Shown: positions 55,155 to 55,277 of the stretch, piece by piece
Layout of the letters: every line of letters begins with the position of its first letter
How positions within the stretch are numbered: position 1 is the first letter of the stretch
Program-made: the position numbers and the translations under genes
From: Viridothelium virens
Lineage: Eukaryota > Ascomycota > Dothideomycetes > Trypetheliales > Trypetheliaceae
Reading direction: 5' to 3'
DNA length: 56,428 nt
Assembly (NCBI GenBank): GCA_010094025.1
Contig: ML991880.1
Coordinates: 1 to 56,428, forward strand
The notes under the pieces: generated by a model
The model's database searches: none
Seen by the model: only the letters and a program-made list of their open reading frames with translations
What the model was told of the DNA's origin: nothing

Positions 55155-55277
55155 GCCCGCTTGGCTTAGGGGTACAGCGGTAAGACTTCTCACTTCTCAT
55201 TGTCTATGTTAGACGCTAAGCAGCAAATAGTGTCACTCGTAATGACAAGATCCTCGGTTCGATTCCGAGAGTGGGCA
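55155..55277 (+). tRNA. tRNA-Thr(CGT) with a 51-nt insert between D-arm and anticodon arm
   Basis: The acceptor stem GCCCGCT (55155-55161) pairs with AGTGGGC (55270-55276), one G-U pair. The D-arm GCT...AGC is intact. The anticodon arm TGTCA-CTCGTAA-TGACA (55231-55247) carries anticodon CGT at 55238-55240 after U33. The variable loop is AGATC and the T-arm CTCGG-TTCGATT-CCGAG. Box A and box B sequences are good, and a T7 terminator follows. The two parts (25 and 47 nt) make a normal 72-nt tRNA. The insert 55180-55230 begins GTAAGA and ends AATAG. Standard nuclear tRNA introns sit after position 37, so this one is misplaced. Confidence 0.75.

Follow-up and report, generated by a model that had tools for sequence, protein, structure and literature searches.

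The window analysed here, a stretch of 56,428 nt of Viridothelium virens DNA (contig ML991880.1), contains a tRNA-Thr(CGT) gene whose cloverleaf is interrupted by a short GT..AG insert, and this locus raises the question whether a nuclear tRNA gene can carry an intron of the kind that is spliced from mRNA. To our knowledge, nuclear tRNA introns are described as a single class, located between positions 37 and 38 and removed by a protein endonuclease. A preliminary description of the locus suggested that the tRNA gene may carry an intron of mRNA type, or else represent a second class of tRNA intron, and named a dead gene copy as the alternative. V. virens is a dothideomycete, which the available part of PMC8809443 places among the lichenized Trypetheliales.

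The interrupted tRNA-Thr(CGT) gene of the window

The gene was annotated as two exons separated by a 51-nt insert between positions 26 and 27 (Table 1). This annotation agreed in its coordinates with the preliminary description, and the box A, box B, T7 terminator and CTAAG motif mentioned there could all be located. Removal of the insert had been noted to leave exactly 72 nt. After excision and addition of artificial flanks, ARAGORN indeed read a 72-nt tRNA-Thr(cgt), whereas the unspliced gene, also with artificial flanks, was forced into a wrong tRNA-Asp. No tRNA was found in the intact window by ARAGORN (default settings) or by Rfam (gathering score), and Rfam reported no tRNA at the locus of the gene (L001) at E values up to 0.1. 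Since ARAGORN with default settings and Rfam both missed the gene, tRNA finders may undercount genes of this type.

In a cloverleaf score that was blind to splice signals, the best 51-nt excision was a two-way tie between shifts 0 and -1, which give an identical product; one of the two is the GT..AG excision. The predicted fold of the precursor was barely better than that of shuffled sequences (z -1.40; 22 of 200 shuffles were equally good).

A count of other Thr(CGT) genes in the assembly, a check suggested at the outset, returned none: when the whole gene was used as a DNA query against the 30.7-Mb genome, it matched itself alone, and neither its 3′ half (up to 3 mismatches) nor a general Thr pattern had a genome-wide match outside the window gene. 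The Thr codon ACG is common, accounting for 63 of the 216 Thr codons in four long ORFs. At the contig end (window positions 56150-56340) repeated GATC-rich words were seen by eye.

Table 1. Coordinates of the tRNA gene and mRNA introns of the window (plain numbers) and of two tRNA loci elsewhere in the genome (G000 positions)
Feature	Position	Strand	Evidence or remark
tRNA-Thr(CGT) exon 1: acceptor 5′ strand, D-arm, position 26	55155..55179	+	sequence; ARAGORN on spliced product
Pol III box A TGGCTTAGGGG, unbroken	55162..55172	+	by eye against consensus TRGYNNARNNG
GT..AG insert, 51 nt, probable spliceosomal-type intron at 26/27, GTAAGA..AAATAG	55180..55230	+	sequence, structure score, splice signals
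5′ splice site GTAAGA	55180..55185	+	sequence
Putative branch site CTAAG, one base off YTRAY	55216..55220	+	second A 12 nt from intron end
3′ splice site TAG	55228..55230	+	sequence
tRNA-Thr(CGT) exon 2: anticodon arm (CGT), variable loop, T-arm, acceptor 3′ strand, A73	55231..55277	+	sequence; ARAGORN
Pol III box B GGTTCGATTCC	55256..55266	+	sequence
T7 run, presumed Pol III terminator	55279..55285	+	sequence
SSL2/XPB mRNA intron, GTTTGC..CTAAT..GCAG, 62 nt	40018..40079	+	flanking exons match P0001 at 100%
PWP2 mRNA intron 1, GTTGGT..CTGAT..GTAG, 48 nt	24614..24661	-	gap in P0121 match
PWP2 mRNA intron 2, GTAGGC..CTGAT..ACAG, 56 nt	24445..24500	-	between two P0121 matches
ERG7 mRNA intron, GTATGC..CTGAC..CTAG, 60 nt	7216..7275	+	inside P0241 match; exon ends read against P0241
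Probable further ERG7 intron, GTAAGT..CTAAT..GTAG, 55 nt	7011..7065	+	upstream of homology-supported part
tRNA-Thr(TGT), L187: introns at acceptor stem 5/6 and T-arm 53/54	G000:C71:136980-137370	+	
tRNA-Gln(TTG)-like gene, L084: ambiguous, counted apart	G000:C18:427350-427700	-	~99-nt D-loop insert

Interrupted tRNA genes in the V. virens genome

An Rfam tRNA search of the genome scored 63 of 927 candidates; hence patterns for box B and for the terminator, and a script for stems and box A, were added. Regions fetched from the patterns were then either searched for stems and a box A or inspected by eye. The pattern GGTTCRANYCC had 160 matches in the genome, of which 100 were inspected and the remainder reached via further pattern searches, except GGTTCAANCCC beyond C37. 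T-arms with other 52/62 pairs were sought only together with a T6 run, and 16 new places, chosen by eye, were fetched. One of the census scans retained full acceptor and T-stems only. Isotypes were assigned from the anticodon loop by reading. The mitochondrial contig C129 and the loci L174, L180, L183, L184, L185, L186 and L188, which were read by eye, stand outside the counts.

This partial census recognised at least 40 nuclear tRNA genes. GT..AG inserts were present in 22 and not recognised in 17; one gene was ambiguous. The anatomy of the Thr(CGT) gene is thus beyond chance, as 21 other tRNA genes share it. The preliminary description was right but understated the finding: the window gene is one case among many. 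The 22 interrupted genes lie on 20 contigs, represent 20 anticodons and 12 amino acids, and contain 26 GT..AG inserts. They are Thr(CGT), Thr(TGT), Trp(CCA), Ser(CGA), Ser(GCT), Ser(AGA), Arg(TCT), Arg(ACG), Arg(CCT), Leu(CAA), Leu(TAA), two Asp(GTC), Ala(AGC), Ala(CGC), Pro(CGG), Lys(CTT), two Gly(GCC), Gly(TCC), elongator Met(CAT) and Asn(GTT). Four of them, Arg(TCT), Gly(TCC), Asn(GTT) and Thr(TGT), carry two GT..AG inserts each. A 37/38 intron is additionally present in 14 of the 22, so that Arg(TCT), Asn and Thr(TGT) apparently have three introns each (two GT..AG inserts and one at 37/38).

The genes without a GT..AG insert, as judged by reading and ARAGORN, are Lys(TTT), Cys, Gly(CCC), His, Arg(CCG), Gln(CTG), Thr(AGT), a His-like gene, Ala(TGC), Ile, Ser(TGA), two Glu, Val(AAC), Val(CAC), Pro(AGG) and Pro(TGG). 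A hidden GT..AG insert may be present in L023 or L025. The former (G000:C1, about 423895-423981) is a second gene with the His anticodon GTG and has an odd anticodon arm; it exists besides a normal His gene (L011).

When the 22 interrupted genes were spliced in silico and given artificial flanks, ARAGORN called all of them tRNA, 20 with the expected anticodon. In the unspliced form, again with artificial flanks, five were not called, 14 were assigned a wrong isotype, and only Ser(AGA), Arg(ACG) and Gly(TCC) were called correctly. Disagreement between ARAGORN and the assigned isotype concerned Asp b and Ser(GCT) among the interrupted genes; elsewhere, L014 was read as Arg(CCG) and called cct, and L025 was read as Ile(TAT) and called gat.

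The ambiguous Gln(TTG)-like gene was kept apart. Its 99-nt insert has CTAAC and CAG close to the end. No GT..AG excision leaving a standard D-loop was found in it, and the insert is possibly a GC-AG intron or a shifted one. Several candidates were rejected: L121 (acceptor stem 6/7, T-stem 4/5), L048 and L122 (T-stem 4/5 in each), and readings of 310 nt at the Trp locus and 84 nt at L084.

The partial census yielded no gene for Phe, Tyr, initiator Met, Ile(AAT), Leu (AAG, CAG and TAG), Arg(TCG) or Val(TAC). Because several isoacceptors were not found, the census is incomplete; the missing genes may have a split T-arm or other forms of box B.

Ordinary 37/38 introns are apparently present in 27 of 39 nuclear tRNA genes (14 of the 22 interrupted genes and 13 of the 17 others), a share that seems high. 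Their lengths in the Trp and Met genes were 19 and 24 nt or 32 and 34 nt, depending on the analysis.

All 22 interrupted genes have a run of at least five Ts within 50 nt downstream. The relation of the introns to the internal promoter varied. Six of the nine D-loop introns follow a G; by eye, the G that opens the intron completes the conserved GG, which leaves box A uninterrupted at the DNA level. The Asn, Arg(CCT) and Ala(CGC) genes are cut ahead of the box A GG, the Lys(CTT) intron lies inside box A, and one intron of Thr(TGT) lies inside box B, which is hence split in the DNA. The split boxes of Lys(CTT) and Thr(TGT) and the cuts before GG should hamper a purely internal Pol III promoter. 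Five 5S genes and three genes for U6, likewise a Pol III gene, were found (47 candidates scored in each search), and none had an intron; therefore Pol III genes in general are not invaded.

Boundaries, splice signals and nature of the inserts

The 26 inserts are 46-64 nt long. Nine are located in the D-loop, seven between 23/24 and 26/27, three at 30/31 and 31/32, three in the anticodon loop (32/33, 33/34, 34/35), and one each at acceptor stem 5/6, D-stem 12/13, T-arm 53/54 and in a variable arm, the last numbered 44/45 by counting from the 3′ end of a tRNA with a long variable arm. None of the 26 occupies the canonical 37/38 site. The internal exons of Gly(TCC), Asn and Arg(TCT) are merely 14-16 nt long.

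Insert boundaries were placed by eye using GT..AG, with branch-like motifs in view. The placement was checked by moving an equally long excision through the gene and scoring the product on pairing and conserved tRNA bases (31 points); the control is only partial, as the length to be excised was itself taken from the placement by eye. The GT..AG excision was at most one point from the best in all 26 cases, against 1.5 expected when the length of the 37/38 intron was left free and 1.3 when it was fixed. It was in the top tie in 20 (free) or 22 (fixed) of 26 cases, as compared with about 0.5 expected; the top ties contained 1 to 16 excisions, on average five. Another excision was one point better in six (free) or four (fixed) of the 26. 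For 20 of the inserts just one GT..AG excision was possible at the given length.

The consensus forms GTRNG, YTRAY, box A and box B, and the geometry of the bulge-helix-bulge, are the general ones. All 26 inserts are GT..AG, which was the rule used in placing the boundaries. The 5′ splice site follows GTRNG (purine at +3 in 23 of 26, G at +5 in 24 of 26), and a pyrimidine is found at -3 of the 3′ end in 24 of 26 inserts. The motif CTRAY, with its A 7-20 nt from the end, was present in 17 of 26, compared with a mean of 1.9 and a maximum of 6 in 400 shuffles of the intron interior. With YTRAY in the same range the count rose to 22 (shuffled mean 4.8, maximum 11), and within 5-45 nt of the end to 24 (shuffled mean 10.8, maximum 18). 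The two inserts lacking YTRAY, those of the window Thr(CGT) gene and of Ala(CGC), each have CTAAG, one base off.

Protein genes of the window provided mRNA introns for comparison: four homology-supported introns (48-62 nt) and one probable intron (Table 1), a small sample in which all show GTNNG, YTRAY and YAG. The tRNA-gene inserts look like these, the genome's own mRNA introns. The resemblance of the Thr(CGT) insert to the short spliceosomal introns of this genome, pointed out in the preliminary description, was borne out in length and ends, its own branch motif being one base off YTRAY. Its proposal of an mRNA-type intron, or a second class of tRNA intron, gained strong sequence support from 26 inserts with mRNA-like signals in 22 genes.

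Could the tRNA splicing endonuclease instead remove the inserts as non-canonical introns, like those of Archaea and of the red alga Cyanidioschyzon merolae? Endonuclease-cut introns outside 37/38 are known, with the bulge-helix-bulge as determinant (PMC4090602 and PMC8450103, in their available parts), and the V. virens genome retains ordinary 37/38 introns. However, a strict bulge-helix-bulge (four central pairs and two or more of the three outer pairs, shifts by one base permitted) was detected at only one of 26 junction pairs, close to the background of 50 in 2166, a result that further supports the mRNA-type reading. GT..AG ends, G at +5 and branch motifs are also unexpected for endonuclease introns. 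We consider this origin very improbable.

The dead-copy alternative, in which working copies are located elsewhere or missing from the assembly, has equally little probability in our judgement. The assembly comprises 175 contigs, so gaps are possible, and several isoacceptors are absent from the incomplete census. But excision restores the stems in the 22 interrupted genes, which cover 20 anticodons, and the genome searches found the window gene only once. Moreover, both Asp genes and both Gly(GCC) genes found are interrupted, with an intron site common to each pair. Identity is 38/51 in the introns and 71/82 in the exons of the Asp pair, 34/52 and 66/71, respectively, in the Gly(GCC) pair; the 5′ flanks are identical at 35/69 (Asp) and 37/72 (Gly(GCC)) positions. 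Splice and branch signals were kept in both pairs though the introns diverged more than the exons, which speaks against dead copies.

It is extremely improbable that the inserts arose as recent copies of some mobile element, introner-like or a transposon, and merely resemble introns: the many inserts of similar length within a single class of genes point to a shared mode of gain, but in an all-against-all comparison of the 26 inserts only the Asp pair scored above shuffled sequences (41; next 24; shuffled maxima 22, 28 and 22). An old origin of the inserts by insertion is possible.

A probable spliceosomal class of tRNA introns and its known relatives

The insert of the Thr(CGT) gene is very probably a U2-type spliceosomal intron in a functional, Pol III-transcribed nuclear gene, and belongs to a set of at least 26 such introns in 22 or more nuclear tRNA genes. 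Points that weigh against this reading are the split promoter boxes and the cuts before GG, the CTAAG motifs one base off YTRAY, the ambiguous Gln(TTG)-like gene, the intron-free 5S and U6 genes, and the placement of boundaries by eye. In the proposed pathway Pol III would transcribe the interrupted gene, and the spliceosome would recognise GTRNG, YTRAY and YAG and remove the intron or introns of 46-64 nt. Their removal would restore the D-arm, the anticodon arm or another element. RNase P and RNase Z would then finish what is presumably a functional tRNA; in precursors that also have a 37/38 intron, the tRNA splicing endonuclease and ligase would take part as well. The endonuclease step is tentatively placed after the spliceosome because the tRNA splicing endonuclease requires a folded tRNA body. 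The spliceosome step is biochemically plausible, since yeast splices a lichen intron from Pol I rRNA (PMC8527467, available part) and since introns occur in U3 and U6 (PMC5832005, available part).

We regard it as likely that V. virens, and perhaps the Trypetheliales, possesses a second, spliceosomal class of nuclear tRNA introns, present in about half of the tRNA genes. By the same reading, the tRNAs for Trp, Asn, Asp, elongator Met, Gly(GCC) and Thr(CGT), for which no intact gene was found, can probably be made only with the spliceosome, and many precursors are expected to be processed by two unrelated splicing machines acting on one tRNA. If this is true, a large part of the tRNA set needs the spliceosome, and translation capacity is tied to mRNA splicing. 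Testable questions are how Pol III transcripts and the spliceosome come together, how internal exons of 14-16 nt are defined, how introns entered short structured genes, and whether they have a regulatory role like that proposed for lichen rDNA introns.

The introns are ordinary in kind; their location in tRNA genes, on such a scale, is new as far as searched. No report of spliceosomal introns in tRNA genes was found by title or start of abstract among the matches listed in the open-licence literature (subscription journals and preprints fall outside it). In their available parts, PMC13149111 treats tRNA splicing as independent of the spliceosome, and PMC13130702 and PMC8809443 are silent on the subject. 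The phenomenon is not categorically new, given the U6, U3 and rRNA precedents of spliceosomal introns in structured non-coding RNA genes.

Canonical 37/38 introns also interrupt nuclear tRNA genes, and do so in 14 of the 22 interrupted genes of V. virens. They are cut at a fixed place by the tRNA endonuclease, for which GT..AG and a branch signal are unneeded. According to the available part of PMC8450103, eukaryotic tRNA genes are limited to one intron, whereas three V. virens genes apparently have three. The introns of Archaea and C. merolae resemble the V. virens inserts in their odd positions, and in Archaea there are up to three per gene (PMC4090602 and PMC8450103, available parts); these introns, however, keep the bulge-helix-bulge, which 25 of the 26 V. 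virens inserts do not show in its strict form.

The closer relatives are spliceosomal. According to the available part of PMC5832005, which calls U3 a polymerase III gene, frequent interruption by an intron was so far known among small structured RNAs for U3 snoRNA and U6 snRNA only. As is probably the case in the V. virens tRNA genes, the introns of the fungal U6 and U3 genes are spliceosomal introns in structured small RNAs; they are two RNA genes, whereas in V. virens at least 22 tRNA genes are interrupted and the three U6 genes found are without intron. The rDNA of lichen-forming ascomycetes also contains spliceosomal introns, one of which yeast removes from rRNA transcripts (PMC8527467, available part); the word tRNA does not occur in the main text of that paper. 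As far as its available part goes, the lichen rDNA introns are likewise short (57 bp in the example) and of mRNA type, although the lichen-fungus gene that they interrupt does not encode an mRNA. They differ in that they interrupt Pol I rRNA, with few per rDNA repeat, whereas the V. virens introns interrupt tRNA.
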